Origin: Malania oleifera
Taxonomy: Eukaryota; Streptophyta; Magnoliopsida; Santalales; Ximeniaceae
NCBI RefSeq assembly: GCF_029873635.1
Contig: NC_080417.1
Coordinates: 25,864,182 to 25,928,181 of the forward strand
Reading direction: 5' to 3'
DNA: 64,000 nt
Shown here: in pieces, positions 3,535 through 64,000 of the stretch
Position numbering within the stretch: the stretch's first letter is position 1
Layout: the number at the start of each line of letters is the position of its first letter
Made by a program: the position numbers and the translations under genes
Notes under the pieces: model-generated
The model's database searches: none
What the model saw: the letters and a program-made list of their open reading frames with translations, nothing else
Told to the model about the DNA's origin: nothing

Positions 3535-5181
3535 TATTGACTTTTTTGAGTCTGATCCCTATTTTGATGCTGACAAAGCATCTGTGTCTTATGTGTGTAT
3601 TTAGTTTTTGAACATGTTTATATTTCAGCACACACATAAGGATTAAGAGAAATGAAAGCCAAGCACAAACACGTGGCGTACTCCATGAAGTGAAGAGCAA
3701 AAGATCAAGAAGAAGACATTTAATTTTATTGTATTGCATTTAGTTTATATTTTGGTTTGTAATAATGCATGGCATGCATGATATGGATGATAAGTTTAGG
3801 ATGGTCGTAGACTGACCCTAGAAACTATCACTTTTCACAGAAACTCTTTTCTTAAATAACAAGTTGGTTAGGGTCGAAGATTAAGGCCAAAACGAAGTTT
3901 CCAAAAACTTGGTCGACCAACGTTGGACTTTTTGGCTTAATTCAAAAGCCTCGACTGTAGAGAACCGAACAAGGACCTTAGCTAACCTTACGACACAAAA
4001 TCTTACAGACCATACTCATACATTTAAGGGAAAATTTTGTTAAAGGTCAAAATCAAGAGAAAAATAGGAATTTCACTTACCTCGGTCGACTGACCATTGC
4101 AAGGTCATTTGACCTTGGCCGATCCAACTAAGAAGTTGACCAAAGTCAAAGATTCGGTCTACCGGCCCAAATTGAACTAACCTTCCTTGGTTGACTGAAC
4201 TATAAAAATTCACTTTTCCACCAACTTGATCGACCGAATTCATAGTTCAAAATAGCCTTGGATGACCGAACCTCAAAGATGGTCAACTGAACTTAAGCCA
4301 TGGTCAACCGAACCTACGAAGGGTTCAAAATCGCCCTTAGACGGTCAACTAAATCCATAGTTCAAATTTGCCTTGGTCGACCGAACTTAGTAATGTAGCT
4401 GACTAAACCTCTTGAGTCAGCCATTTTTTTAAATGCCTAAACATGCTTAAAAATTAATTAATCTTTTCTAAAAATTTTCAACATGTCCCTAATGGTTAAA
4501 TTTTTGCCCAACTCTATATATACCCTCTCATTATTCATAATTAGGAAGTTGACTAACCCAAAAACTCTCTTGAATTGTTATATTTATTTTTTATCCTCTC
4601 TTTATTATTACTCTGAAAAATATATTTTCAATAGAGCATTATATTTATCTTGAGCATTTGTTTTTACAAATCATATTGTTTACTTTTATATCTTGTTTAT
4701 CCTTTCAAATCATATTTCTGAGAGTAAATCCAAGTTTTCTCCATATATATTCATTGATATATATATATATATATATCCTTAGAGAAAAATCCATTTTTTT
4801 GTTTGTGGATCTTGCACATCCATTGCAAGATTCAAAGGCTCACATGCTTGTGCTTGTAAAAATATTTTGAGTCAAAACCCTAGATTCTCCAGCACTTCAT
4901 TTGGAAAAATAATTTTGGAGAAAAAGTTTTATTTTGGCATAAAATCTTTGAGCACTCATCATACACATTTTTATTCAAAGATTATTTTTGTGAAAGTCAC
5001 ACTCTCACATTGAGCATATTTGCATATCATACGTGAGTATATTTGTGCTTGTTGTTATACACATCTTCTTGCTTAGAAGCATATTTTCATTGTACAAAAA
5101 TATTCATTTGTTGTGTTCCCGACGGGATGTCGGAAGAGGGAGACTAGCCTTGTGAATAGTCTCGGACTTGCTCAAACCCAG
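3535..5181 (+). mobile_element. SIRE-like LTR B, copy 1, 3' end replaced
   Basis: Corresponds to the solo LTR at 35782-40891 without that copy's later insertions. It begins TATTGACTTTTTTGAGTC, carries a GGTCGACC-type palindrome array (about 3905-4395), a TATATATA box at 4515-4522 and a long leader. Near 5181, at CTAAAGGAG, it switches to the LTR of the next element, so its own end is missing. Assignment to a SIRE/Maximus-like copia lineage rests on LTR length and on the gag-pol of the neighbouring element. Confidence 0.75.
3905..4395 (+). promoter_or_regulatory. GGTCGACC palindrome array upstream of LTR B TATA box
   Basis: Eleven or so variants of GGTCGACCGAAC (GGTCAACCGAACC, GATCGACCGAATTC, GGTCGACTGACC and similar) recur every 30-45 bp. 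The array ends about 120 bp before the TATATATA box at 4515. Several sites have decayed by C-to-T type changes. In copy 2 (37000-37412 and 39583-39675) more of them are intact. Confidence 0.65.
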
Positions 5182-5332
5182 CTAAAGGAGCAGGGATTTA
5201 GTGGAATCCTTGAGTGGGTTGCTCAAGGCGAGGACGTAGGCTAGGTTAGCTGAACCTCGTAAAAATTGTGTTTGCCTTCTCTCTTCCCTTACTCTTTTTA
5301 TTTTCCGCAATGCATTTCATTACCTATCACAA
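5182..5332 (+). mobile_element. 5' LTR remnant of element 1
   Basis: AGGAGCAGGGATTTAGTGG to TTTCATTACCTATC matches 12216-12358 in the 3' LTR with few changes. It is preceded by LTR B sequence and followed by gag-side DNA. It is the only surviving part of the 5' LTR. Confidence 0.8.
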
Positions 5333-11781: not shown

Positions 11782-13262
11782 TATTACAAAGATCATATTG
11801 TATTTGGATACTTGGAAGAAAACTTATTGATTTAGATCTTTATTATATCAAAGACAAATTTTTTAATAAGATCACACTTGGTATTCGTGCATCTAATAAG
11901 TTGAACTAGAATCTTAATTTCTCCAAAAATTTTACTTATACCATTATTTTGGGAGATTTGATAAAAGGGAAATCGTGTGAAGCATATCATTCATATAACG
12001 ATTATATTGTTACATATATATTGAGCTTCAAGTTTCATCATATGCATATGTATTAGGATTTCAATTGCACTCACTAGCTTTGTTAGAAGCAATATTGAGT
12101 TGTTTTGCAGAGTTGAAATTCTATATTATAATCATGGTTTGGTTTGTGAACCAGGTGAGGAGGAAGTTGTGCCTCTTGCAAGTAGCGGATGTAAGAGAAG
12201 CTCCGTCCCAATTAAAGGAGCAGGGATTTAGTGGAATCCTTGAGTGGGTTGCTGAAGGCGAGGACGTAGGCTGGGTTGGCTGAACCTCATAAAAATTATG
12301 TTTGTCTTCTCTCTTCCTTTACTTTTTTTATTTTCCGTAATGCATTTCATTACCTATCTTGCATGTGTATGTTGAATAACTCCACTCGTACTTGACAATT
12401 AATTAGGTAAAAAGAATTGGTTGATATAATAATTTAAATCAGTCTTAAACCCCTGCAACTAATTTGTTAAATATAAAAATAGGGATTAAGTGGTAAATAA
12501 TATTAACGGTTTTTAAAAATACCCAATTCACCCCCCCCCTCTTGGGATTACACCTAAATTAACAATTAAAATTGCAAAATTTCAAATCCAAAATTTTGTG
12601 ATTTGAATGTAAGTAGGAATTTTTTAATCTAGATTGATTACCCATATCCAAATTCAATAATCCAGATTTTGATCCAGCTACCCTCATTTGATTACCTGAG
12701 ACCCGACCCAAAAACTCAAGTCAACTTGCCCCAAGTCTAGGTCAACTATCCCAAATACCTAACCTAGGCCCAAAGACACGGGTCTTACCTAGACACTTGG
12801 ACCCAAATCAATGTTAATTTGGGTTAGCTTACCTCAATTAGCCCATTTCTTCTATCCCGACCCAAATGGGCCTGATCCAATTAAAAATCAAACCCATTTT
12901 AAGCCTAATACCCTAACACCCAGTTAGGCTTGACCCAATTAAGCCTTGTCAACCTAATTAAGTTTGAAACCTAACATAAACCCAAATAAGAGCCTAATCT
13001 AACACAGCTGTGGTAATCAAACCCTAGTTTGGACCAACTTTGGTTTTCCCTCATTTGTTTACCTAGAAAAGGGAATAAAATTGAAACAAAATACGAAATG
13101 GAAAGAGAAATCGAAAGAAAGTTGTTACCTCTTGATGATTCGAACTTAGATCTACAGTTCTTTTGCCTTCTTCTGATCTAAATCTACAAAATAAAAGAAA
13201 GAGAGAGTGTGAGATCTGAGGTGAATAAGGAGAAATGATAGAGAAAGAATGAGGTGAAGGAT

Positions 13263-15180: not shown

Positions 15181-17071
15181 TGTTGACCTAATCGGTCATA
15201 TCCCGTTTTGATAATGAAAAATACACATAATACTAATGTTTGCACCGAGGCTTGCATGTAGGTTCACCCTACGTGTGGAATCGAACAGAACGCTAAATCA
15301 TGATGGCATATGGTGATTACATAGAAGACTGAAGAATATTGTGTTGTATTTTGTATTTGTTTTATTATATTCTTCATTATGGGCTGTAAATTAGTTATGG
15401 ACTGTACCTCAATATGGCATGTAATAATCTGCATCATGCATGGTAAGTAGATATGCTCAAAAGACCTTAGATGGACCTTAGGTTCCTACACATAGTGTAC
15501 AAAGTCCTCAATATCACATAAATTGTCAGGGAAATTAATTAAAGTAAAATTAGAATGAAAGGGCAAATTTTGTGATTGGTCGGGCGACCAAACCCTTGGT
15601 GTTCAAAACACCTCGGGCGACCGAACCGTGGACCAAGTCAAAAAGTTGACCTGAGTTTGGAAAACCAAACTAAAATGAACACATCTTCCTCAGTCAACCG
15701 AATGTCCAAACTACTTTTTCTAAATAGCCTCGGGCGACCGAACTTCAGACCGAGCACCCGAAACATGGTCTTTTTAAGGAATCGCCTCACTCAGCAAACC
15801 AAAATGAAATTCAGGCACTCGAACCATGAAAATAACTTTTCCTGCTGTGTTTGTTCGATCGGCTGAACTTCAGCTTGGTCATCCGAAACTCTCGAGTTGA
15901 TTTTACTTTTACCTCGGTAATTAGGGGTTAAATTGGGTTAAAATATTAAACTCATTTAAAATCTTTTTAATAATACCCATAGAGTCCCCAACGGTCATAA
16001 TTTTGCCTATGCCTATATATACAAGTTCATTTACAAAAATTAGTAAGGATTAGCAAGATCATTCAGCCAATACACTCTCAAACTTCCAAATCATATTTTT
16101 GTTTATACTACTCACATACACTCAAAAGCTTCAATTTCTTTGATTATCCAAGTGTCGTGAGTGTGCTAAGAGTGTTTGTGCTTCATTCCATTTACTCAAT
16201 ACTCTCATAGTTGTTGTTTATTGATTGATTTTATTATTGAGAGTTAAGCATAAGTTTTCCCACTAATTTAATCTAATAAATCTTGTGTGGGGAAAAATTA
16301 GTGGCTCGTGGGTGTTTGCATTGATATTGCAAGTTACCTTAGCCTGTATTTTTTTGTGTAAAAATATTTTTTAAGCTTGCATTCAAACATCTCTTGTGCT
16401 TAGTATATTGAGAACATATTTTTGAGCTTGTTTGAATCATCTTGTTAGCATTTTGAAACCGTAAACTAATATTGAGATATTTCATATTGTGGCTCAAAGT
16501 CTGCTTAGATATACACTCCAGATCTTGATTGCTTATCTACATTAGATTGAGTGTTTAGCACACATTATTAAGCACTAAGCATATTTGCTATCATCTGTGC
16601 TTGCATTATTATTTGCGCTATATTGTGGTACATATCTGTTTGTTGAGAAGCATATTTCTGTGTATGCAAATTTTCACATCATTTGTATTCCAAGCGTGGG
16701 CCTAAAGAGGGAGACTAGCCCTATTGAATAGTCCCGGATTGGTTTTGACCCGGTTAGGAAAGTTAGGTGCATCATCCTGGTAAGGTGTATGTAAATGGTG
16801 CCGCTCCACTCGTTAAGTGAGCCGTAGTGGAATCCTTCTACTAGTAAGCCAAGGCGGGGACGTAGGCAAGAGTGGTCGAACCCCGATATCATATCGTGTG
16901 TGCAATTTATTTTTTCGAAATTTATTTATCGCACGTGTATGTTTTACTTATAATTGTATAGACGGACCCTAGGTTGCTTAATACTACTGATAGATTGGTT
17001 GACCTAGGGATAAATTTTTAAATGTTCAATTCACCCCCCTCCCCCCTCTTGGGATTGTACCAAAGCTAACA
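15181..17071 (+). mobile_element. Solo LTR C, SIRE-like (1.89 kb)
   Basis: Runs from TGTTGACCTAATCGGTC to GGGATTGTACCAAAGCTAACA. Exact 5-bp target-site duplication CCATA at 15176-15180 and 17072-17076. No internal region is attached, so it is a solo LTR formed by LTR-LTR recombination. It carries a GGGCGACC/GGTCAACC array (15580-15885) and a TATATATAC box at 16014-16022. The leader contains the AGAGGGAGACTAGCCC phrase common to all related LTRs here. Confidence 0.92.
15580..15885 (+). promoter_or_regulatory. GGGCGACC-type palindrome array of LTR C
   Basis: Sites centred near 15585, 15618, 15642, 15662, 15695, 15735, 15756, 15796, 15816, 15858 and 15880. They are variants of TCGGGCGACCGAAC, with two intervening degenerate palindromes (GTCAAAAAGTTGAC and GTTTGGAAAACCAAAC). 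Steps are about 20-24, 33 or 40-42 bp. The centre base has shifted from GTCGAC to GGCGAC, so symmetry is weaker than in other LTRs. Confidence 0.55.
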
Positions 17072-29335: not shown

Positions 29336-29645
29336 GGACAGGTAGAGGGGCTGGCCGGGAGGTAGATGGGTTAGAAATTGGTGTGGTCCTGGTTTTGAAG
29401 ATAGGGAATGAATATTCATTGAATATGACATCACATGAAATGTACATGCAATTTGAGTTGAGATCAAGACACTTGTAGCCTTTATGTGTTGGACAGGTAG
29501 AGGGGCTGGCCGGGAGGTAGATGGGTTAGAAATTGGTGTGGTCCTGGTTTTGAAGATAGGGAATGAATATTCATTGAATATGACATCACATGAAATGTAC
29601 ATGCAATTTGAGTTGAGATCAAGACACTTGTAGCCTTTATGTGTT
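29336..29645. repeat. 155-bp tandem duplication inside element 3
   Basis: Units 29336-29490 and 29491-29645 look identical by eye, both starting GGACAGGTAGAGGGGCTGGC. 155 is not a multiple of three, so the duplication breaks the reading frame. The lack of differences suggests it is much younger than the element's other damage. Confidence 0.92.
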
Positions 29646-29764
29646 GGACTGTAGCCTAAGAAGAGACATGACGTGGACCGGAACTTTAATTTGTGAGAGG
29701 AATATGGTCGAAAGTTGGGCCAACATTCACACCCAAAAACTTTAAGAAACTTGTAATCAGACTC

Positions 29765-36712: not shown

Positions 36713-37542
36713 CACATAAGGATTAAGAGAAATGGTGGTCAAGACGGATCTTAATACACACACACTTGGTGTACTCCATGAAGTAAAGAGTAAAAGATCA
36801 AGAAGAAATCATTTAATTTTATCATATTGCATTTAGTTTATATTTTGATCTGTAATAATGCATGACATACATGATATGGATGATAAGCTCAAGATGACCG
36901 TAGACTGACCCTAGGGACCAACACTTTTCATAGAAACTCTTTTTTTAAATAACTAATTGGTTATAGTCAAAGATTAGGAATAAAACGAAGTCAACCGATG
37001 TTGGATTGTTTGGCATAATTCAAAAGCCTCGATCGTAGAGAACCAGACAAGGACCATAGCTAACCTTAGGACACAAAATCTTTCATTGAAAAATCACTCA
37101 CTTAAAAATCATACTAATACATTTAAGGGAAAATTTTGTTAAAGGTCAAAATTAGGGGCAAAAAAGGAATTTCACTTACCTCAGTCGACCGACCATCGCA
37201 AGGTCATTTGACCTTGGTCGACCGAACTGAGAAGTTGACCAAAGTCAAAGATTCGGTTGACCAACCCAAATTGAACTAACCTTCCTCGGTCGACCGAACT
37301 ATAAAAATTCACTTTTCCACCAACTTGATCGACAGAACTCATAGTTCAAAATAGCCTTGGTCAATCGAACCTCAAAGATGGTCAACCGAACCTAAGCCAT
37401 GGTCGACCGAACCTACGATGTGATGACCTGAAGAATACTGGTATTTAAATAATAAAAGAGAGGGAGTGAAAATCGGAAACAGAAGGAGGCAGTCAACAAC
37501 GTTGCATTTTGGGAAGGATAAACCTAAGAAATTTTTCAGCTA

Positions 37543-37731
37543 TTCGTTGACGAATACAGGGGACTCATCAACGAAATTTCTACAAGACTCGTCGACGAGG
37601 TGACGTGTCTCGTGGACGAGGAAATGCCGAGAGGGAATCTGGGGTAGACTGAATTTCGTCGACGAGGAGTGGGTTTCATCGACGAAATTATTGAAGGACT
37701 CATCGACGAGATGACGTGGCTTGTCGACGAA
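37543..37731 (+). promoter_or_regulatory. Phased CTCGTCGACGAG palindrome array and TATA box
   Basis: Eight 12-bp palindromes of the form [CT]T[CT]GTCGACGA[AG]. Centres are 37548.5, 37569.5, 37593.5, 37614.5, then 37660.5, 37680.5, 37704.5 and 37725.5. Steps are 21, 24, 21, 46, 20, 24 and 21, i.e. two groups of four with the same internal rhythm. TATAAATAG starts 15 bp after the last centre. Confidence 0.82.
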
Positions 37732-38350
37732 TCCAGCCTTATAAATAGTGAAGAACTCAGATTTTTTATGGAAATTAAGTGCAGAAACCCTCTCTCTCTC
37801 ATCCTACAGCCCTTCTCCCTTCTTTCTTCGATTTCGGGCCGGATCTTAGTCGGATCGACAATCTAAAGCCACCACAACGCTCCTGGGAAAGTTCTCTGCA
37901 AGTTTGCCGGAGTGAATCGTCAGTGGGGCTAAAGTGGAAACCATCCCAAATCCAGGGTAAGATTTTCTACTCAATATTTGGATTTTTGGTAGTTGTAGAA
38001 AGTGTTATACGTGTAGAAATACTGAACTTTAGTTCTGAGGAATGCTGTTTCCAGGGTGTTGACCAGGGAACCCTGCGAGGGCAGGACAGATTTTCTTAGG
38101 ACCTTTTCAGGAATCAGGTAAGTGGATAAACTAAGCTAGTTCTTTTTAAGAAAATGTATATATATATAACATTTGATTTCAAAAAAGTAAATATGTTCAT
38201 ATATATGATTTATATTTAGGAGAATACTGTTAAAATGATGGTATGTTGAATATAAGAAAAACCTGTTTGGTGTGGCATGAGTAGAAATTGCTTTAAAATA
38301 CTGTTTCTGGGAATGTGTTAGTGATACGAATTTTTATAATGGAAAACCGG

Positions 38351-38560
38351 CGTACGGACTGAGATTTTTATATGTTTGCCGCCGTACGGGCCGTGCTATG
38401 TGTATGATTTGCTAGTGTACAGGCTGAGCTATGGATATATTTTGTCGGCATACGGGCCGTGCTATGGATGTGATTTGCCAGCATACAAGCTGTGCTATGA
38501 TATGATTTGTCGGCGTACGGGCCGAGCTATGATAAAATATGTAATACCAGCGTACGGGCC
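38351..38560 (+). repeat. 33-bp tandem repeat in gypsy-type LTR
   Basis: Seven units with core CGTACGGGCCG (variants TGTACAGGCTG and CATACAAGCTG) at 38351, 38383, 38416, 38449, 38482, 38514 and 38551. Steps are 32-33 bp, the last 37. Each core is followed by AGCTATG or TGCTATG and an AT-rich spacer. The CGTACG core is itself palindromic. It lies about 600 bp after the TATA box. Confidence 0.82.
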
Positions 38561-40896
38561 GATGATTTTTCATGATATACATATATATGTAAAATGATAT
38601 GATTGATTTGATAATTAATGATATGAAATATCCATGTATCACAGTTTTAGTATATGTTATATGATATCAAAACCTGGTTAGCTTGGTTTAGGCTAGCACT
38701 TGCACGGTACAGTTGCTATGTGTCCATGGTCTTCGTGATCATGATATTTGTGTTAATGCCGTTATACGAAGTGGTGTGAGATTGGATGGTCGATGTGGTT
38801 TTTAAGAAGTGCGTGAGCGCCCCTGGTGTACGGACCAGGTCAAGCAGACCCATCAGACTTATAGACTGTACTTTTGACTCGGCAGTGGTCGGCCAACCAT
38901 TGTCAGGTCCTGCCTTAGGGCCACACAACCCAGTCATGTGGGGGTAATACATGACAACAACCAACCAACCTATCATGAATGTTTTTATATTATTATTATA
39001 TGAGATAAGATATGTTTATGAAAATACAGTATGTTCTGCCATGTTTTGATGATATATATGTTTTCCCAGATTCGACAAAACAGTTACTAGATATGTTCTA
39101 TATGGTATATGTATAACATGGAATACTCATGTTGTCACACACTGGTATTAGTTTATTTCCCTTACTGAGAGGTGTCTCACCCCGAATTTTATAAACTTTT
39201 CAGGAACCCCTGATAGGAGAGTGAGTAAAGCCCCACTGATCTAGTACGATAGATCTGCCCTTCCAGAAGGGTAAGTATTTTGATAAGGTCGGTTGTATTT
39301 TGTGGAAATGGCCCTAAGACATCTTTTTGGGTTAAGTGTTATGTATATATATACACAGTGATTGTAGTAACTCTGGTATTGTGGTGTATGGCATAATGAG
39401 ATGCATATGATTGTATGTTTTCTGCTGCTTAGGCTTCCATTTTGTGTTCTGATGTATCCTTGGTACCCACAGGTCTAGGTGGATTATGATATGCTAAGCT
39501 GGGATTTGTGATATTGATTTTATTAAAAAAAATGTGAAAAATAAGCAGGTCGTCACATACGAAGGGTTCAAAATCGCCCTTAGACGGTCGACCAAATCCA
39601 TAGTTCAAATTTGCCTTCGTCGACCGAACTTAGTAATGTAGTCAACCAAATCTTAAACACGGTCGACTGAACCTCTCGGGTCAGCCATTTTTTCAAATGT
39701 CTAAACATGCTTAAAAATTAATTAATCTTTTCTAAAAATTTCCAGCGTGTCCCCAGCGGTTATATTTTTGTCCAACTCTATATATACCCCCTCATTATTC
39801 ATAATTAGGAAGTTGATTAGCCCAAAAACTCTCTCGAATTCTCATATTTATTTTTTATCCTCTCTTTATTATTACTTTGAAAAATCTATTTTCAAGAGAG
39901 CATTATATTTATCTTGGGCATTTGTTTTTACAAATCATATTGTTTACTTTCATATCTTGTTTATCCTTTCAAATTATATATATCCGTAGAGAAAATCCAT
40001 TTCTTTGCTTGTGGATCTTGCACATCCATTGTAAGATTCAAAAGCTTACATGCTTGTGCTTGCAAAAATATTTTGAGTCATAACTCTAGATTCACCAGCA
40101 CTTCATTATATTTTTGGAGAAAAAGTTTTATTTGGGCATAAAATCTTTGAACACTCATCATACACATTTTTATTCAAAGATTATTTTTGTGAAAGTCACA
40201 CTCTCACATTGAGCTTATTTGCATATCATACGTGAGTGTATTTGTGCTTATTGTTGTACACATCTGCTTGCTTAGAAGCATATTTTCGCTGTACAAAAAT
40301 ATTCATTTGTGTATTCCCGACGGGTTGTTGGAAGAGGGAGACTAGCCCTGTGAATAGTCCCGGACATGCTCAAACCCGGTTAGGAGAGCACCGGACTAGT
40401 TCAGACCTGATTAAGAGAACCAAGTGCACCATCCTGTTAAGGTGCTGTAAAGGTTGAGGTCATCCCTATTGATCTAACCTAGGGTATTCCCTTGCCCAGT
40501 AAAGAGAGGGGGGTTGTAAACGGTGTCGCTCCAATCGTAAGTGAGCAAATTTAGTGAATCCCCTTGCTTGTGAACTTGAGGCAGGGACGTAGGCAGTATT
40601 GGCCGAACCCTAATAACATATTTGGTGCAGCTTATACTTTTTCGCAATTTTTTTTTCTACACCTAGATGTTATTATTTATTGCTCTAATCGTTTTACATA
40701 TATGCATTAAATGAATGATAATACTGAGATTGGTTTATTAGGTTAAATATTTGCTCAGTAGTTTATCTGTGTTATTGATGAATGCTTAGATGACTCTAGG
40801 TTGAGTTATACTATTGCTGGTTTCTTGATCTAAGAAGAAAATTTTAAAATGCTCAATTCACCCCCCTCTTGGGAATGCACCAATTCCAACAGATGG

Positions 40897-41137
40897 TCTG
40901 AAGCAAAACCGGTGAAGGTTTGCATAGTACATTGACGGTTTCTTCTAAAAACAAATTAGCAAGAAAACCATCGATGGTTTGATGTTGGTACATTGTCGGT
41001 TTCTTCTAGTGAAGGAAAACTCTCGACGATTTGATGAAACCGTCATCGGTTTCGTTCAACATTGTTTTTGAAATTTGAACTGGGATAGTTAATAGATTGT
41101 GGATGTGGAGGAAAATCCTCTGCAGATTGATATAGGG
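40897..41137 (+). mobile_element. Element 4 5' LTR, part 2
   Basis: Between LTR B and LTR F. Contains the ACCATCGATGGT-type array and ends with TAGGG, the target site of LTR F. Confidence 0.75.
40906..41050 (+). promoter_or_regulatory. ACCATCGATGGT palindrome array of element 4 LTR
   Basis: Sites centred near 40913.5 (AAACCGGTGAAGGTTT), 40933.5, 40972.5 (AAACCATCGATGGTTT, a perfect 16-mer), 40994.5, 41024.5 and 41044.5. Steps are 20, 39, 22, 30 and 20. The TATAAATAC box of this LTR lies beyond the LTR F insertion near 43250. Confidence 0.6.
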
Positions 41138-43195
41138 TGTTAGCTTTGGTGCAATCCCAAGAGGGGGGTGAATTGGTTTTTAAAAATTCTTCCTAAGTTT
41201 AGCTAATCCAACAGGCAGTATTTCACAAACCTAGGGTCTTTCTACGAATTCACAATCCCAAAAAAATATTCAAATAATAAACATAAACATACAGGTGCAG
41301 AATGTAAATTGTCAAACATAAAATCAACACCAGATATGATATCGGGGTTCGTCCAATACTGCCTACATCTTCGCCTTGGCATACCTGCACAAGGATTACA
41401 CTATAAGCTCACTTAACGGGTGGAGCGACACCGTTTACAATCAGGTCAATTAGTGGGGTTGACCTCAACCTGCACCTTACCAGGATAGTGCACCTAACTT
41501 TTCTAGCCGGGTCTAAGCCAATCCAGGACTATTTACCAGGGCTAATCTCCCTCTTTAGGCTCATGCCTGGAATACAACAAATATAAAAATTTTGCGTACA
41601 AAGAAAGTGCTTCTTACACTAAGCAGGTATGTATTACAATATGCACAGTATAATCAATGCACAACCAAAAGATAGGATCTGATTAGCTTAGTGTAGTCTT
41701 AATGTCTACTCTCAAAGATTAATGCAAATATGACAATCAGTACGTGAGAGTGTAAGTGATAGGATCTTTGTGTCAAAATAATAGTCTCAATCACAATGCA
41801 ACAACAAAGATCATAAGCACACTTCAAATATCTCAATAAATATTTTTCTCAAAATAAACCACAAGAGAAATTTAAAAATGGTTTGTAAAAATTTATTTGA
41901 TCTTTGTATTAAAATGATAATCTCAATCAAAAGGTATAGCAACAAAAATCTTTTAGCACTTAACCATACATCTCAAAATATATATTTCTCAAATATAAGC
42001 ATAAGAGATATTTTGAAAATGATTTATAAAATCTTTTAGCAATCAAAATCCAAAGTGAACTCCTTAAGTATTGCAATGACAATGCAAAACTCAAAGGCTC
42101 AATGAACTATTCCTAAGGAAGACTTATTAACAAAGTCTTCTAAGAAAACTTGAAGCTTAGTGAGATTAACACAAGAAAACTCTTACAAGAAAGTATTTGT
42201 AATATGAATGAGTAAGAGGAGTAGTATATGGCTTGAATATGAGATTTTGGCTTTTTGAAAAACAGAGGATATTTGCTAATATCTCCCTAATTTTTGCAAA
42301 TGAGAGGGTATATATAGAGTTCCCCAAAATTATAATCGTTCAGGACATGTAGGGTATTATTAGGATTGTTTTAAAATATTTTAGTAAAGTTAACCCCGTT
42401 TATAAAATTTAACCTTGTTAAAAATAATGTCCAACTTGAGAGCATCGGTCAACCGAACTTAAGGTTCGGTTGACCGAGTGACAGAGTTCGGTCGACCGAG
42501 CAAAAAATGAACTAAGAGTTCGGTCGACCGAACTTATATGGTTCAATGGCAATTTTCTAATTCCGCGTGATTCGGTCAACCGGAGCGTTGAAGCTCATTT
42601 TCTGGTCAATTGATCGAAGAGTCAATTGTTAACCCCAGGGAGGTTTGGTCGACTAGGACTTGCCTATATGTTTTTGGTCGGTCGACCGAGAGGTCAACAT
42701 GTCGACCCGGTGGAGGTTCGGTCGACCGAAGATTTCTGCGTGCAGAAGTTTGGTTGACCGAACATGCCCTTTTGTGCATTTCGGTCTTTTTCTACTTATA
42801 AAGTTACCTCTATTCACATGATAATCAACACTAAGATTATGGGGGCCATTTTAATGCAATTATGTGGGTCATATGGTCGATCTAAGGCCTTTGAGTATAT
42901 ACCCTAAAAATCTGGCGCCGGTCGACCTTCTAAGGTCCAACTATGGTCATCAGCTTATCTATCCTACCATGCAGGTAAGACATTAATTATAACAGTTCCT
43001 ATGTTACTATTACATACCCAAAATGATAAATATAAATTACAACAAACAAATATGTTGGGGTCTTCATATTTCTTCAAGTTGTCGCATGCCATCATTATAA
43101 TCCAATTAGTATGATCCTGCACACAAACTTGAGAGCCATCAAATATTAAGAGTATTTGTCATTATCAAAATTGGGTATGACCCATAGGGTCAACA
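41138..43195 (-). mobile_element. Solo LTR F, SIRE-like, minus strand
   Basis: On the plus strand it starts TGTTAGCTTTGGTGCAATCC and ends CCCATAGGGTCAACA. Target-site duplication TAGGG/TAGGA at 41133-41137 and 43196-43200 (4 of 5). No internal region. In its own orientation the palindrome array (42445-42760) lies upstream of CTATATATACC (about 42309-42318). It interrupts the element 4 LTR. Confidence 0.9.
42445..42760 (-). promoter_or_regulatory. Phased GGTCGACCGAAC array of LTR F
   Basis: Centres 42450.5, 42471.5, 42493.5, 42525.5, 42577.5, 42609.5, 42650.5, 42683.5, 42703.5, 42723.5 and 42755.5. Steps are 21, 22, 32, 52, 32, 41, 33, 20, 20 and 32, all close to whole multiples of 10.5. Several sites are the full TTCGGTCGACCGA. 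Confidence 0.78.
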
Positions 43196-47729: not shown

Positions 47730-48763
47730 CTACCCCAATTTTCTAGCTCCTATTTTCTGTTCATCACTATCTTGAGTATGCTTCACTATAGCCTTCTCAT
47801 CAAAGACTACATCCCTACTGATCACCACCTTGTTTGCCACTGGATCCCACAACTTGTACCCCTTTACACCTTTCGGATATCCCAAAAAAATGCAATGACG
47901 AGATTTTGGGTCAAGCTTAGACCTCTCCTCACTAGACATGTGAACATAGGCTGAACACCCAAATACTTTCAATCCAGAGTAGTCTACTGCATTTTCCATC
48001 CATACCTCTTCTGCCACGTTACCCTCTAGTGACTCTCTTGGTGATCGGTTTATCAGAAAATAAGTCATACTAACTGCCTCGACCCAGAAGTTCTTCGGTA
48101 GCCATGCATTAAACATGAGACACCGAGTTCTCTTAACTAGAGTCCGATTCATCCTTTTCGCCACACCATTTTGTTGAGGTGTCCGACAAATGGTAAGTTT
48201 CACTTAATGCCCTACTGCTCATAAAACTCTATAAATTGAGAATCAGCGTACTCGGTCCCATTATTCGACCTCAAGCATTTGATTATCCTCCCCGTTTGGT
48301 TTTCCACTTCAGCCTTCCAAATCTTGAACCTAGAAAATGCATCAGACTTATGCCGCATGAAGTATACGCAAACTTTCGATGAGTAATCATCAATAAAACT
48401 CACATAATACACATGTACACCCTTTGACTCAGCTCTAACCGGGCCCCAAACATCGAAATGCACATAATCAAGAATACCTTTCGTCTTGTGAACAACTGAC
48501 TTGAATTTTGCCCTGTTTTGTTTTCCAAGTACACAAATCTTGCAAAAGTCCAACTGACATGATTTCAAACCTTTCAAGAGTTTCCTCTTTTGTAATTCTT
48601 TCATATCATGTTCCTCCATATGCCCAAGACACATATGCCACAAGACGGTCTCATCAGATTCAGCATCTACGACTGCAGCTCCACCTATAATAGTAGTTCC
48701 CTGCAATGTGTAGATATTCCCATCTAACTTTTGCCCTTTCATCACCGTCAGATTCCTTTCCAT
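47730..48763 (-). pseudogene. Element 5 integrase remnant
   Basis: LWHMCLGHMEEHDMKELQKR with C-x2-C (CKICVLGKQNRAKF), then HFDVWGPV, CLRSNNGTEYADSQF (the second catalytic Asp is Asn), a stop-shift at about 48207, then TPQQNGVAKRMNRTL (the catalytic Glu of V-x-E-R is Lys) and CIFLGYPKGVKGYKLWDP. Two of three catalytic acids are lost. Confidence 0.87.
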
Positions 48764-48994
48764 ACCTTCATAACTCCACCTTTGGACTTGTAATTGAAAC
48801 CATTACAATCCAAAGTGTCAAGTGATATCAAACTTTTCCTCAACTCCGGTATATGTATTACATTGCTCAAGATTCTCACAACACCATCAAACATTTTTTT
48901 TATCTTAACTTCCTATGTCAATGATCTTACAAGAAAAATCATTACCCATAAGAATTGAACCTGAATTCACTAACCAGTAAGTACTGAACCACTA

Positions 48995-51052: not shown

Positions 51053-51760
51053 CTTGTTTGGAGTCATGTGATAAGAATATGCCGAATCAAGTATCCAAGA
51101 GTCCGTAAGATTATCTGACCCCGACGAAACTAAAAGAATATCACCATCGCTGAAAATTAAACCTCCTTCTTGATCGACATTCGCTGACTTTGAAATCCTT
51201 TCATGCTATTCAGCATTTGCCTTCTTCTACTACGGAAACTCTGGTTTAACATGCCCACCTTTTATCGCATTTATAACACCGAATTTTCTTTTTCTTCTTG
51301 GATTGATTACGTTATTTCTGACTTGACCCACTTTTAAACTTTCCTTTGCCATGCTCATTATTACCTTTCACCACAAGTCATTCTCCTTCATCACATATTT
51401 TCAACCTTTGATGAAAATTCAGAAAAACACTTGTTACTTCTTCTAGATCAAGAGTCTTTTTCCCCACGTAAAGGTGGTAACTAGATTTTCATAGGTATGA
51501 ATCGACAACAAGGAGTTTAGCAACATCAACGCCTTATCATCTTCATCAATCTTAACATCAACACTCATCAAATCACTTATGATTTGATTAAATGCATTAA
51601 TGTTTTGATCTAAGTTTGATCCTTCAACCATCTTAGGCCAATAAAGACGATGCTTAAGAAAAATTTTATTGTTAAGTGATTTGGACATGTACCAACTTTC
51701 TAACTTTTGCCATATAGCCGCTGAAGAATCCTCCTCCATTACATGATAGAGAACTTCATT
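51053..51760 (-). pseudogene. Element 5 gag (second part), zinc knuckle and protease start
   Basis: Frame 51739-51443: MEEDSSAAIWQKLESWYMSKSL and MLLNSLLSIHTYENLVTTFTWG. The knuckle near 51270 has CYKC and then a one-base shift before G-H-V-K-P-E. Protease WILDSAYSYHMTPNK at about 51060-51110 is intact up to the LTR G insertion. Confidence 0.83.
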
Positions 51761-53190
51761 GGCTATGCCACGCTTTGAACTCGGTAATGGTACCCAGGGG
51801 TGAATAAGTAACCTATCTTGTCCCTATATCATACAAAACATCCATGATACACCATAATGAATGAGGGTCCGACCCCGTGGGGTTCCCATACACCCTATAC
51901 ACATTCATATACATAATAGATACACAGCGAAAAAAGGTCTTTCTATACATATTTTGTACCATACCAGAGGCTATACAAAAGAAATCTAGGTTCCATAATA
52001 CAAAACATAAACCCGGGTGTCAGCCAAAACCACAAAGACAACTCGATACAGTCCTAATACTTACCCAAGTACCTCCCGCAGTACACCGACCACTACGCTC
52101 CCAACACAAGGACGCTAGTTTCGGTTACTTGAAGGACCTGAAAAATATGTACGTACGATAGGGGTGAGACACCTCTCAGTAAGGTAGATCCAAGTTATAT
52201 CGGTGTGTGGCATATGAGTGTTATCATGACATAATACATACAGAGTTAAAATGCAATTCCAGTATTTTCACAAAACAGTTCCAGTATAGTGCATATCACG
52301 CACACACTGATTAAGTAACCCGGTATCGTCACACCCTTTGGCCCAAAGTCAGCTCGCATTAGACGGCGTCCTGGCACATGGCGTAGCCCCATGCTCCTAT
52401 GGCATCGTACCGGTATAACTGGTGGATCCACACCCTTCGATGATCAGCCGGTAAGGCTCACGCCCTCGGATATAGAGTCGAACACTCTTGCCAAACATGG
52501 TAAGTGATATTTCACACCCTCGGATATAGAGTCGGACACTCTTTCACAACTTGGAACAATTCGGAACCCCGTTCCTATTGCATTTCAACAAAGCACAACC
52601 ATGCATGCTCATATAACCAAACAAATCACACCTATTTGGTAATCTAAAATCATGATTTTCCAAAAATACACAGTTTAAACAAGTCAAGGCACGACCATCC
52701 CTATAACATAATATATATCATAATATATTCACAATTTTCCAAAAAAACCAGAGATGCGACCCAATGCCCCCTTTTCCCCAAAACTGTAACATGAAAAACT
52801 CATTATTTTGCCCGTTAGATTTCCTCAAATGAGTAACCAAAACGCACACAGGACCGTGAATCACAGTTCTACCGAATCCGATTTCAAAAATAACCGACAT
52901 AAACAGAATCTCCTTACCTTCCCTCGAAAATCCAAACCCGAACTCTATAGCCCCTAAACAGTGAACCGAGTTCTCAAAACCTATAAATCACAGTATTGAA
53001 CATACTCACAATTCTATTTCCTACACAACTACGGAAACAAAATTGAAAATCGATCCTTACCTCGATTTTGAGCCAAAACCCGAAAACACCCGAAACAAAG
53101 ATTCGTTTCGTAAATCTTGAAGAGAATCCTTCCCTGATCCTCGTGGTAACATCGGATCGATGATTCTAGCAATGTACGATGAAGAAATAT

Positions 53191-53192
<2 letters not shown>

Positions 53193-53240
<48 letters not shown>
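53193..53240. repeat. (GA)n microsatellite
   Basis: About 24 GA units, with a second shorter tract at 53255-53271, in the transcribed leader of the gypsy-type LTR. Confidence 0.95.
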
Positions 53241-53243
<3 letters not shown>

Positions 53244-53335
53244 TTAGTGTTCCTAGAGAGAGAGAGAGAGGTTTTCTTGATTTCTTAGTTGTTAAGCAAT
53301 AGAACATATATTTATAGCCCTTTGACTCGACCAAC

Positions 53336-53506
53336 CTCGTCGACGAGATGGCGTCTTCGTCGATGAGTCACTGAAGAAAGTTTATCGACGAGCTTGAGAT
53401 TTTTGGACTCCCGAAACCTCTCGGCTTCTCCTCGTCGACGATCTCCTGCATTTCGTCGCAGAGCAACATAAGGCCTTCGTCGACGAACTCTGGCTTTGTC
53501 GACGAA
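53336..53506 (-). promoter_or_regulatory. Phased CTCGTCGACGAG array of the minus-strand gypsy-type LTR
   Basis: Seven palindromes, centres 53341.5, 53361.5, 53386.5, 53436.5, 53457.5, 53481.5 and 53500.5. Steps are 20, 25, 50, 21, 24 and 19, close to the rhythm in 37543-37731. In the LTR's orientation they lie directly upstream of its TATA box. Confidence 0.78.
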
Positions 53507-53582
53507 GCTTGCTCAATTTACCATTTGATCCTTCTCTTTATTAATTTATTCCATATATCACGGTTCGAGTTCTTACAGGCCA

Positions 53583-53813: not shown

Positions 53814-54366
53814 GTTGTAAATAAGAATCGGATATAGGATGCACAGTGGAATAAAAACACAACAAGCAAACTAAACTCAACCAGTAAATAAGAAACAATA
53901 AGGACAACAACAAGATTTACTTGGTTCTGCAAAGCCTACATCCACAGAAGTAATGACACAAGAATTTCACTAAGGAAATATCAAAGTACACAATACACTT
54001 CACAAATAATCACCCTCACTGTCAATACACGCTCAGAATGACATATATAACGGTTCCTCGGAGGTTTCCCTTTAATTACCCAACCACCCCAACGTTCAAA
54101 TTCAAAATTCAAAAAATTGCTGGCAGTCCAAAAACACTCATCGATGAGAATAGGGGATTCGTCGACGAGACAAAGAAGGACACTCATTGACGAGTTTGGC
54201 TAATTATCGATGATCCTTTAAATCTGCTTTCGGTATCTCAGAAACTATGAGTTTTCCTTGCTCTCAGGATCTACTCGTTGACGAGCACAGGGCACTCACC
54301 GACGAGTCCCTGCTGTGCAACCCCCTTCCTTCCTTTGTTTATTAAACTCCAAGTATAAGAGCCACA
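53814..54366 (-). mobile_element. Element 5 5' LTR (553 bp)
   Basis: Minus strand TGTGGCTCTTATACTTGG to CTTATTTACAACA, followed by primer-site-like TTGGTATTAGATC (plus 53800-53812). TATATAT box at 54042-54050. The start matches the element 4 LTR start and the length equals that LTR's reassembled 553 bp. Confidence 0.78.
54137..54306 (-). promoter_or_regulatory. CTCGTCGACGAG-type array of element 5 (copia) LTR
   Basis: Six palindromes: CTCATCGATGAG (54142.5), TTCGTCGACGAG (54163.5), CTCATTGACGAG (54188.5), ATTATCGATGAT (54208.5), CTCGTTGACGAG (54279.5) and CTCACCGACGAG (54300.5). Steps are 21, 25, 20, 71 and 21. Same motif and rhythm as the gypsy-type LTRs, about 90 bp upstream of this LTR's TATA box. 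Confidence 0.75.
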
Positions 54367-56748: not shown

Positions 56749-58875
56749 TGTTGACCTTATAGGTCACGCCTGGTTTTGATAATGAAAAATACTCCTGTAT
56801 TTAATGAATATCCAGTTCATGTGCAGGTCTATATTAGCAGATACATTGATGGCACATGAAAGCTTAAGGCTTGAAGACCAATCCATGTTTTTCAATTGTA
56901 ATATATTTTAAGTGGTGAAATTAGTCTGTAATAGTAATTAGGATATTTGGGTTGTAATAAGCACACACATCATATGCATGGTTTATTTTGTAAGCTCAAA
57001 CTAGATACAAACTAAAAGTGACCGTAGAAAGATCTTAGGGTTTGGTCGACCAACACTGGACTTTTTCGGTGTATTCATTGTTGGACATAAATGACCCTAT
57101 GACACACACATTTGCATCTATGTTTGTTAGGCACTTCATTAGGATTTGTGTGTATTAAAACGGGACCGAAATGCACACTTTGTGCACTTTCGGTCTACCG
57201 AACTAGGCAGTTCATTCTGCCTTGGTCGACCGAACCAGGCCTAGGTCAACAGTTGACCACGGCCCTAGTCGACTGGACCAAGTAGTTCAAAAAGCCCCGG
57301 TCGACCGAAACTTGCCTGGGTCAACATTTTGACCATCTGGTCGACCGAGCCACTTTTGTTCTCCAACTACCTGGTCGACCGAGAGTCCTCGGGAGAAATC
57401 CCAACGGTCTGGTCGACTGAACCAACCAGTTCAAAATGGCTCGATCGACCGAACCTTAGAGATTTGAAAAATCGTCTTCTCTTGGTCGACCGAGCCTTTA
57501 GTTCAAAATTCCCTTGGTCGACTGAACAATATAAGACCTGGTTGACCGAAACATTTCTGGTCGACCAGACCTCTCAGGTTGCCCTGATTTTTGCCGTAGT
57601 TAAATATTTTTTAAATAGGGTTAAAATGTTTTAAACGTCATTAAACTTTTCTATCAATCCCTAATAGGTTCCCAACGGTCAAAAATTCTGGTATGTTTAT
57701 ATATACCCTCTCATTTGGGAAAATTAAGATGAGATTAGAAAATCAAATTCTCTCTCAAGCAAAATATTTCTCATTGCTCATACTCTTCCAAATACACTCT
57801 AGCTTACCTTTAAAAGTTGTAAAATCATCTGTAAGTGTTCTTGACTGTTTAGTTTGAAAGGTTTGCTCTCTCTCTGCTATGAGATTGATTCATTTTGTTG
57901 AGAGCCAAACCTAAAAGGATTCATAGGGGACTTTGCTTATAAGTTCATCCTAAGAAGACTTTATTAGATCTTCTGAGATTGCATATTCGTTGCAACATCT
58001 TAAGAAGCTTATATCTGCTTTTGGTTGCGAAATATTTTCAAAATCATTTACAAATATCTAGTGTTCTTTACTTGAAAACCATTTAAGTAGATATTTGATT
58101 TTGAGGTGAAACATCTTTGTTGCAATATTTATTCACTCATACATTATTTGCTGAGAACAAAGATTATATATATTTTGCAGTCCAAGCATACACATATTTA
58201 TATGATTGAGATATTCTGCTGATCGATACTCTTGAGGCTTGCTTGATATTCTGTGTGAGCACGTTTGATTGAATATTTTGAAATACACAGATTGTCATTG
58301 ACACTCTCCCGTACGTACTACACTAATAGAAAATATATTTAAGAGTTGAACTATTAAGACCATACTGAGCTTACATTTAAATCATCTGTGGTGTTTGTGA
58401 TTGTGCGCATTTGGGGTACAAATCTGCTTTACGTGAAAGCATCCTTATATTGTACCTTTTAATTGTATATCTGAGAGATTCTAGGCGTGGCCTGAGGGGG
58501 CGGTAATCCAGCCCGATAAGGATTGGTGTAAAGGTTGAGTTTAGCCTTTTGCTAATTGACTTGGTTTGTATAGGTGCCGCTCCACTCGTTTAAGTGAGCA
58601 AGTTATTGTGATAATTCTTGTGCTGGTTAGTCAAGGCAGGGACGTAGGCAGTTGGTCAAACCTCAATAACATATTTGCGTGTCACACTCTCTTTATTGCT
58701 TTCTGGTGCTTGTGTGAGTAATTAAACTACTTTACTTAATTTCTGATATATTTATATTACTATCACTAGATTGACCATAGGTTTGTGAACATACTGCTAT
58801 TAGGAGAAATACCTAGGGGATAAATTTTAAAAATACCAATTGACCCCCCCTCTTGGGATCACGGTAAAGCTAACA
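56749..58875 (+). mobile_element. Solo LTR D, SIRE-like (2.13 kb)
   Basis: TGTTGACCTTATAGGTCACG to GGGATCACGGTAAAGCTAACA, with an exact target-site duplication ACAAC at 56744-56748 and 58876-58880. Array 57041-57568, TATATATA at 57699-57706. Same family as the LTR starting at 62527. Confidence 0.93.
57041..57568 (+). promoter_or_regulatory. Phased GGTCGACCGAAC array of LTR D
   Basis: Main centres 57047.5 then 57195.5, 57227.5, 57270.5, 57302.5, 57342.5, 57376.5, 57414.5, 57446.5, 57487.5, 57519.5, 57543.5 and 57562.5. Steps after the first two are 32, 43, 32, 40, 34, 38, 32, 41, 32, 24 and 19. At least two of the 40-43 steps contain a weaker palindrome (GGTCAACAGTTGACC near 57251, GGTCAACATTTTGACC near 57326). 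Confidence 0.75.
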
Positions 58876-62526: not shown

Positions 62527-64000
62527 TGTTGACCTTATAGGTCATGCCCTGGTTTTGATAATGACAAATACTCTTGTATTTAATAAATATCTAGTTCATG
62601 TGCAGGTCCATATTAGCAGATCATTAATGGCACGTAACAGATCAAAAAGCTTGAAGACAATTTCATATTCCAAATTGTAATATCTCTAAGTGAAATTGGT
62701 CTGTAATAGTAATTGGGGCATTTGGTTTGTAATAAGCTCACACACATCACATGCATGATTTATTTTGTAAGCTCAAACCGAACCATGAATGAGAAAGGAC
62801 CATAGAAAGACCTTAGGGTGCACCTTCGGTCACCGGACTTTTTTGGCGTTTCCAAATTAGACCCCAAGTGACCTTAGGAAACACACATATTCACATACAT
62901 TTGTTAGGCACTTGATTAGGACTTGTTTGATTCAATACGGGACCGAAATGCACACATGGTATACTTTCGATCGACCAAAACCTGTAGTTCAAAAGGCCCT
63001 GATCGACCGAACCAGCCCTGAGTCAATAGTTTGACCAAGGCCCGGTCGACCGAGACCTTAAAGTTCATTTGACCCTGGTCGACCAAACCACCAAGGAGTC
63101 AACATTTTGACCTCCTGGTCGACCGACCAACTTTATACTCCAACAACCTGGTCGACCGAAGGGTCTCGGGAAAATTTCCAGTGGTATGGTCGACCGAACC
63201 ACACAGTTCAAAAAGGCCCGGTCGATCGAACCTCGGAAAAATTGGAAAATCGCCTTGCCTCGGTCGACCGACCACTCAGTTCAAAATACCCCTAGTCGAC
63301 CGAGCTACTTGAGTCCTGGTCGACCGAACCATTTCTGGTCGACCAGACCTCTCGGGTTGCTCCTATTTTTACCGCGGTTAATAATTTTTTAAACAGGGTT
63401 AAATTGTTTTAAGTTTCATTAAACTTTTCCAATAATCCCTAATAAGTCCCCAACGGTCAAAATTTTCAGTATGTCTATATATACTCCTTCATTTGGTGGA
63501 TTAAGCACGGATTAGCAAAAAGAATTAGGAAAATCTCTTTCAAGCAAAAATACCTTCGTTTGATTCCTATTTGCTCATATCTTTCCAAAAAGCACTCTTG
63601 CTCACTTCTTCAAGTTCAAAATCATTTAAGTGCTTTGAGTATATATTTAAATAGGTTTTGCTCTCATTGTTTAGAGTGTTTGAATCGATTTTTCTCTCGA
63701 GAGCATAACCTAAGTTTTCTTAGGAGGCTTTGCTAATAAGCCTACTCTAAGAAGACTTGTGGTAAACTTATGAGTGTTGCATTATTATTGCAATATCTTT
63801 GGAAGTTTGTATTTGTCTGGATTTGCAAAAACATATTTCAAGCTTACTCAAATATCTTGTGAAATTTATTGAACAATTTGTGAAAAGATATTTGTGCTTG
63901 TTGCACTAATCTTTGTGGTATTATTTATACAAGTATATATATCATTTGCCGAAAACAAAGATTATCTATTTTGCAATCCAAGCATATACACATTCGTATG
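62527..64000 (+). mobile_element. LTR E, SIRE-like, runs past the window end
   Basis: Begins TGTTGACCTTATAGGTCATG and is collinear with LTR D. The array is at 62966-63346 and the TATATATAC box at about 63475-63484. Whether it is solo or the 5' LTR of a full element cannot be told from this window. Confidence 0.9.
62966..63346 (+). promoter_or_regulatory. Phased GGTCGACCGAAC array of LTR E
   Basis: Twelve sites: 62972, 63004, 63047.5, 63080.5, 63120.5, 63153.5, 63191.5, 63223.5, 63265.5, 63297.5, 63321.5 and 63340.5. Steps are 32, 43, 33, 40, 33, 38, 32, 42, 32, 24 and 19, almost the same as LTR D. Most copies still read GGTCGACCGA in full. Confidence 0.8.

Follow-up and report, generated by a model that had tools for sequence, protein, structure and literature searches.

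Palindrome arrays with recurrent dyad spacing upstream of TATA-like boxes in three long terminal repeats of Malania oleifera

Sireviruses are called plant-specific in the literature. To our knowledge, arrays of palindromes in front of long terminal repeat (LTR) promoters have been regarded as a trait of this group, and we know of no established binder for them. In the relevant parts of the study of Bousios et al. (2010, PMC2829016), Sirevirus LTRs are described as carrying palindromic repeated motifs (RM boxes) that form CpG islands ahead of the TATA box; there, the RMs are called Sirevirus-specific as compared with classic Ty1/copia elements, the RM of a Vitis element is given as CGGTCGACCG, and the listed RMs, with the exception of that of Tnd-1, share a CGG-CCG core. 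No rule for the placement of the motifs is given in those passages of this paper that deal with spacing, interval or distance. Other transposable elements are also known to have repeated cis-regions, some of them palindromic, and one maize palindrome is common to Copia elements and Helitrons (both according to passages of PMC10760457), which makes an array of the kind described here less novel; passages of PMC6911290 concern insertion targets.

The window analyzed here, i.e., the whole stretch of 64,000 nucleotides, is packed with nested LTR retroelements, and its Sirevirus-like LTRs would by themselves suggest plant DNA. A Pfam scan (10 of the 38 ORFs of the window) identifies solely copia-type or unspecific retroelement domains. 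Near the middle of the window, an array of eight palindromes precedes a candidate TATA box, and the same motif recurs in two other LTRs.

The palindrome array of a solo LTR

The array is located in a solo LTR (hereafter LTR1) that has no internal or coding part and shows TG...CA ends, inverted termini and a target site duplication, the features by which LTRs are recognized. The components of this locus are the following:

37414-37418 and 39558-39562: target site duplication TACGA of LTR1
37419-39557, plus strand: LTR1, 2139 bp, starts with TGTGATGACCTG and ends with CAGGTCGTCACA
37543-37620, plus strand: tetrad 1, palindromes at 37543, 37564, 37588 and 37609 (steps of 21, 24 and 21 bp)
37655-37731, plus strand: tetrad 2, palindromes at 37655, 37675, 37699 and 37720 (steps of 20, 24 and 21 bp)
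37740-37748, plus strand: candidate TATA box TATAAATAG, 8 bp past the end of the last palindrome (20 bp start to start)

The label 'gypsy-type' that the initial annotation gives to LTR1 is putative, there being no internal region in which gene order or reverse transcriptase could be read, and the ends of LTR1 may resemble those of gypsy LTRs. The LTR into which LTR1 inserted, its host, is Sirevirus-like and has an uninterrupted relative at 3633-5192; in the alignment, both flanks of LTR1 match this relative (4180-4420) up to the insertion point. The insertion site itself (37414-37418/39558-39562) falls within the palindrome array of the host LTR. Downstream of its TATA box, LTR1 also contains an inner tandem repeat (38352-38531, unit of ~65 bp, 79% identity) that is rich in GGCGTACGGGCCG.

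The eight TCGTCGACGA-like palindromes (37543-37731) occupy positions 125-313 of the 2139 bp of LTR1, with the TATA box at position 322, and tetrad 2 starts 46 bp after the start of the last palindrome of tetrad 1. The ratio of observed to expected CpG is 1.69 in the array, compared with 0.66 for the remainder of LTR1 and 0.56 for the window. The initial annotation of this DNA is supported in part: the array and its steps are borne out, and several of the details and arguments attached to them are not. Thus, the coordinates of the eight palindromes, with steps of 21, 24, 21, 46, 20, 24 and 21 bp, are confirmed, and so is the claim that these are not chance repeats. Allowing at most one mismatch, YTYGTCGACRAR occurs 15 times in the window, including seven of the eight array sites, versus a mean of 1.11 and a maximum of 5 in 100 shuffled sequences, which rules out a chance origin of the array. 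The motif is best given as YTCGTCGACGAR, to which the eighth site (37564) has two mismatches. The pattern [CT]T[CT]GTCGACGA[AG], which had been assigned to all eight sites, fits exactly in only three (37588, 37655 and 37720); of the supposed 12-bp palindromes, only one of the eight is perfect; and the gap between the last palindrome and the TATA box, given before as 15 bp, measures 8 bp.

The two tetrads had also been described as sharing an identical rhythm while their spacers were not conserved, and this combination was presented as an argument for selection. The rhythms are close rather than identical (21-24-21 vs 20-24-21), and the spacers are alike: an alignment of the spacers of tetrads 1 and 2 has a score of 17 over 30 positions, compared with a shuffled mean of 10.0 (p about 0.001). 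Taken singly, the spacer pairs yield p values of 0.54 (the first pair), 0.036 and 0.005, and the strongest likeness is that between GTGACGTGT and ATGACGTGG and between ATTTCTACAAGA and ATTATTGAAGGA. The tetrads look like duplicates, so that their equal rhythm is no independent evidence of selection, and the argument, in this form, has to be abandoned.

Recurrence of the motif in two other LTRs

The window contains two further LTRs with the same motif, here denoted LTR2 and LTR3:

51766-53577, minus strand: LTR2, a diverged solo LTR of 1812 bp, with the target site duplication TGGCC/TAGCC (4 of 5 positions match)
53336-53506, minus strand: LTR2 array, seven palindromes with steps of 19, 24, 21, 50, 25 and 20 bp
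starting at 53316, minus strand: TATA-like box of LTR2, TATAAATA
54137-54306, minus strand: array of LTR3 (the 5' LTR of a Ty1/copia element), six palindromes with steps of 21, 71, 20, 25 and 21 bp
about 54049, minus strand: TATA-like box of LTR3, TATATATG
51446-51823, minus strand: Retrotran_gag_2 domain of the LTR3 element (Pfam, E value 3e-21)
48215-48802, minus strand: GAG-pre-integrase and integrase core domains (Pfam), tied to LTR3 by strand and order

The element that bears LTR3 is assigned to Ty1/copia given the copia-type gag and integrase-region domains located behind the LTR on the same strand; LTR2 is inserted in the gag region of this element. One of the LTR3 sites, ATCATCGATAAT at 54214-54203, is degenerate and was found after the fact. 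LTR2 appears to be related to LTR1 but diverged because the two have in common the 15-mer GAGAGGTGTCTCACC, which occurs twice in the window at two or fewer mismatches, and the spacer between the tetrads. A motif-free test, in which 12-mers with at least 5 of 6 self-pairs are counted and compared with 1000 shuffles, detects 6 in LTR1 (p below 0.001), 4 in LTR2 (p 0.035) and 4 in LTR3 (p 0.008), and reveals no excess in three copia LTR controls (p 0.45, 0.20 and 0.43).

The spacing of the sites was compared by applying step bins derived from LTR1 (its steps +/-1) to LTR2 and LTR3, with 10000 random placements of an equal number of sites over the same span as the null model. With these bins, LTR2 shows three adjacent short-long alternations (p 0.0013) and LTR3 shows two (p 0.0043), or one (p 0.029) when the degenerate site is left out. 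In a separate spacing test, the bins were chosen after the steps had been seen, above all for LTR1. Compared with those of LTR1, the intra-tetrad spacers are no more similar than expected by chance in LTR2 (p 0.68 and 0.14) or in LTR3 (p 0.59), and the similarity of the LTR2 and LTR3 spacers has a p value of 0.076. Between LTR1 and LTR2, the longer spacer that separates the tetrads is conserved (p 0.002), so that shared descent accounts for part of the likeness, which weighs against a pure 'spacing only' reading. Palindrome positions are kept in 67 of 84 cases between LTR1 and LTR2 and in 32 of 48 between LTR1 and LTR3, a retention that is partly built in because the sites were chosen by their likeness to the motif. 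In this sample of three LTRs, two of them related, the motif and the length of the spacers persist between families, whereas the sequence of the intra-tetrad spacers does not. The initial proposal that palindromes and spacing are kept while the spacers drift is thus largely supported, for the intra-tetrad spacers and by evidence other than that on which it was based, whereas the inter-tetrad spacer common to LTR1 and LTR2 counts against its pure form.

In all three motif-bearing LTRs, a TATA-like box is found downstream of the palindromes, at 20 bp (LTR1), 31 bp (LTR2) and 99 bp (LTR3) from the last palindrome, start to start. A fixed distance is rejected by these values, and the contact between the palindromes and the TATA box that was noted for LTR1 is not general. 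Across the 21 sites in the three LTRs, the 10-bp core shows 23 departures, 19 of which are CpG transitions, and the T and A positions of the core are changed in only 2 of 84 cells. Judging by the kind of change, a CpG-rich palindrome appears to be undergoing methylation-type decay at these sites.

Outside the window, 237 records were matched by motif in viral and prokaryotic contigs (97 and 22 viral pattern matches, plus at least 118 from prokaryotic contigs). With a cutoff of 1e-5, neither blastn nor tblastx relates any of them to the window, and two further pattern scans of viral contigs returned 0 matches each; we regard the 237 records as fortuitous hits of the pattern in viral and prokaryotic DNA.

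A different array, consisting of five weak AAACC-NTCGAN-GGTTT sites (40906-41052, steps of 20, 39, 52 and 20 bp), is located upstream of TATAAATAC (43244), which belongs to a plus-strand copia element; one more LTR separates the array from this element:

41138-43195: solo Sirevirus-like LTR, 2058 bp, with flanks TAGGG/TAGGA

The five sites compare with at most 4 in 500 shuffles, for a motif chosen after the fact, and the array is weak because the motif-free test finds 1 (p 0.67). Elsewhere, a 159-bp stretch of a minus-strand retroelement is present in two copies (29336-29649) that are 100% identical and overlap by 4 bases.

Possible roles of the array

With moderate confidence, we interpret the array as an upstream regulatory module of the LTR promoter that provides sites for a host factor binding TCGTCGACGA as a symmetric dimer. 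This interpretation builds on the presence of sites far above chance upstream of a TATA-like box in three of three LTRs, on the alternation of steps in LTR2 (p 0.0013) and LTR3 (p 0.0043) with the palindromes kept and the intra-tetrad spacers at the chance level, and on the preponderance of CpG transitions (19 of 23) among the departures from the core, with T and A changed in 2 of 84 cells. The unit would be a dyad, that is, two palindromes 20-21 bp or about two helical turns apart, on which two dimers could be seated on one face of the DNA. Dyads placed 24-25 bp apart upstream of the core promoter would act as an enhancer, and the octad of LTR1 would have originated by duplication of a tetrad. 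The binding of a protein, its dimerisation, the activation of the TATA box and the host origin of the factor are what we infer from these patterns. Counting against the platform are the set of three LTRs, two of them related, the p value of 0.029 for LTR3 without the degenerate site, the conserved inter-tetrad spacer of LTR1 and LTR2, the variable distance to the TATA box, and the status of LTR1 itself as a relic; furthermore, the RNA fold of LTR1, which is above that of shuffled sequences, suits a rival explanation.

In this rival explanation, the palindromes would matter through the structure that they adopt in RNA or in single strands. The transcript of a full element would include the array of its 3' LTR, neighboring palindromes could pair to form 12-bp stems with loops of 7-9 nt, and the hairpins would be a signal or a source of small RNAs that triggers silencing. 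The LTR1 array indeed folds better than 200 of 200 shuffles (z -3.37), its 20-21-bp dyads show a mean Watson-Crick pairing of 10.0 of 12 versus a self-symmetry of 9.5, and the palindrome clusters of maize Sireviruses are small-RNA hotspots according to parts of PMC10760457 and PMC5311732. The folds of LTR2 (z -1.38) and LTR3 (z -1.49), however, are equaled by 18 and 16 of 200 shuffles, respectively, and in LTR3 self-symmetry (9.67) exceeds the pairing within dyads (9, 7 and 9); overall, pairing between neighbors has no clear advantage over self-symmetry. Moreover, the fold is not independent evidence, since any tandem palindrome folds. Formation of functional hairpins appears unlikely.

The duplicated appearance of the LTR1 tetrads (p about 0.001) and the 19 CpG transitions among 23 departures would be expected also if the array were a functionless repeat expansion, from dyad to tetrad to octad, now eroded by CpG decay. 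Such an origin is improbable given that LTR2 and LTR3 display the same motif and alternation with intra-tetrad spacers at chance, and that a TATA-like box is found downstream in each of the three LTRs. Transfer of a single module between families by recombination, with the rhythm inherited and not a selected spacing rule, is compatible with the nesting of LTR2 within the LTR3-bearing element, the 25, 20-21 end pattern common to LTR2 and LTR3 (spacer similarity p 0.076) and the inter-tetrad spacer common to LTR1 and LTR2, but is quite improbable, as the chance-level similarity of the LTR1 and LTR3 spacers (p 0.59) implies that any exchange is old, and the retained motif and spacing would still require constraint.

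The preferred interpretation, binding of a dimeric host factor, can be extended to the suggestion, possible but on the whole doubtful, that unrelated LTR families outside Sireviruses (Ty1/copia and a family with long LTRs, perhaps Ty3/gypsy) share, by convergence or old exchange, one host-read TCGTCGACGA dyad code of 20-21/24-25 bp, in which the length of the spacers is fixed and their sequence free. If a fixed dyad spacing is indeed common to LTRs of different lineages, a single host factor could read several retrotransposon families, and the shared motif with this spacing would offer a simple test of a binding platform against hairpins that feed small RNAs.

Sirevirus-type arrays and other known systems

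Six Sirevirus-like LTRs in the window bear CGGTCGACCG-type palindromes followed by TATATATAC at a distance of 121-143 bp (start to start):

4081-4385: CGGTCGACCG-type array
15579-15887: CGGTCGACCG-type array
37180-39671: CGGTCGACCG-type array, split by LTR1
42444-42762, minus strand: CGGTCGACCG-type array
57189-57570: CGGTCGACCG-type array
62966-63348: CGGTCGACCG-type array

Pairs of these LTRs are 52 to 90% identical, and the arrays have a rhythm of their own, with recurrent steps of 32-34 and about 40 bp, in a spacing test that set aside distant single sites of five arrays (S_a, S_b, S_d, S_e and S_f) and the right half of S_c. At five or fewer mismatches, CGGTCGACCG has 65 sites also outside the six LTRs, and some of the listed sites may be chance matches. 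A polyC signal is present near the ends of three of the six LTRs, and a fourth signal of the Sirevirus type (12527-12547) is tied to none of the described arrays. The Sirevirus polyC pattern is absent from the final 150 bp of each of LTR1, LTR2 and LTR3 and has four matches elsewhere in the window.

The LTR1 array resembles the RM arrays, as these are characterized in the relevant parts of PMC2829016, in that many short, CpG-rich palindromes are found in the upstream half of the LTR shortly before the TATA box, and the GTCGAC center is common to TCGTCGACGA and the Vitis motif CGGTCGACCG. At least eight copies of one palindromic motif are taken here as a mark of an RM array; LTR1 has eight, whereas LTR2 with seven and LTR3 with six fall short, and LTR1 also displays the CpG-rich cluster (by the observed/expected ratio) in the upper half of the LTR and upstream of the TATA box. 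The difference is that TCGTCGACGA lacks the CGG-CCG core, as does the RM of Tnd-1. By analogy, the LTR1 array would work like an RM array, yet it misses both the CGG-CCG core and Sirevirus membership. The system of a 2016 study, as related in passages of PMC10760457 and PMC5311732, likewise is a palindrome-rich cis-region of an LTR but has a different motif, CACCGGACNNNGTCCGGTG, and the small-RNA data belong to that system. A search of the open-access literature found no account of the TCGTCGACGA motif or its dyad spacing in LTRs, and, among the matches listed, none of the open-access papers containing TCGTCGACGA is on retrotransposons by its title. Palindrome arrays before LTR TATA boxes are already known from Sireviruses; what is new here is a motif common to LTRs outside that group, and its dyad spacing.
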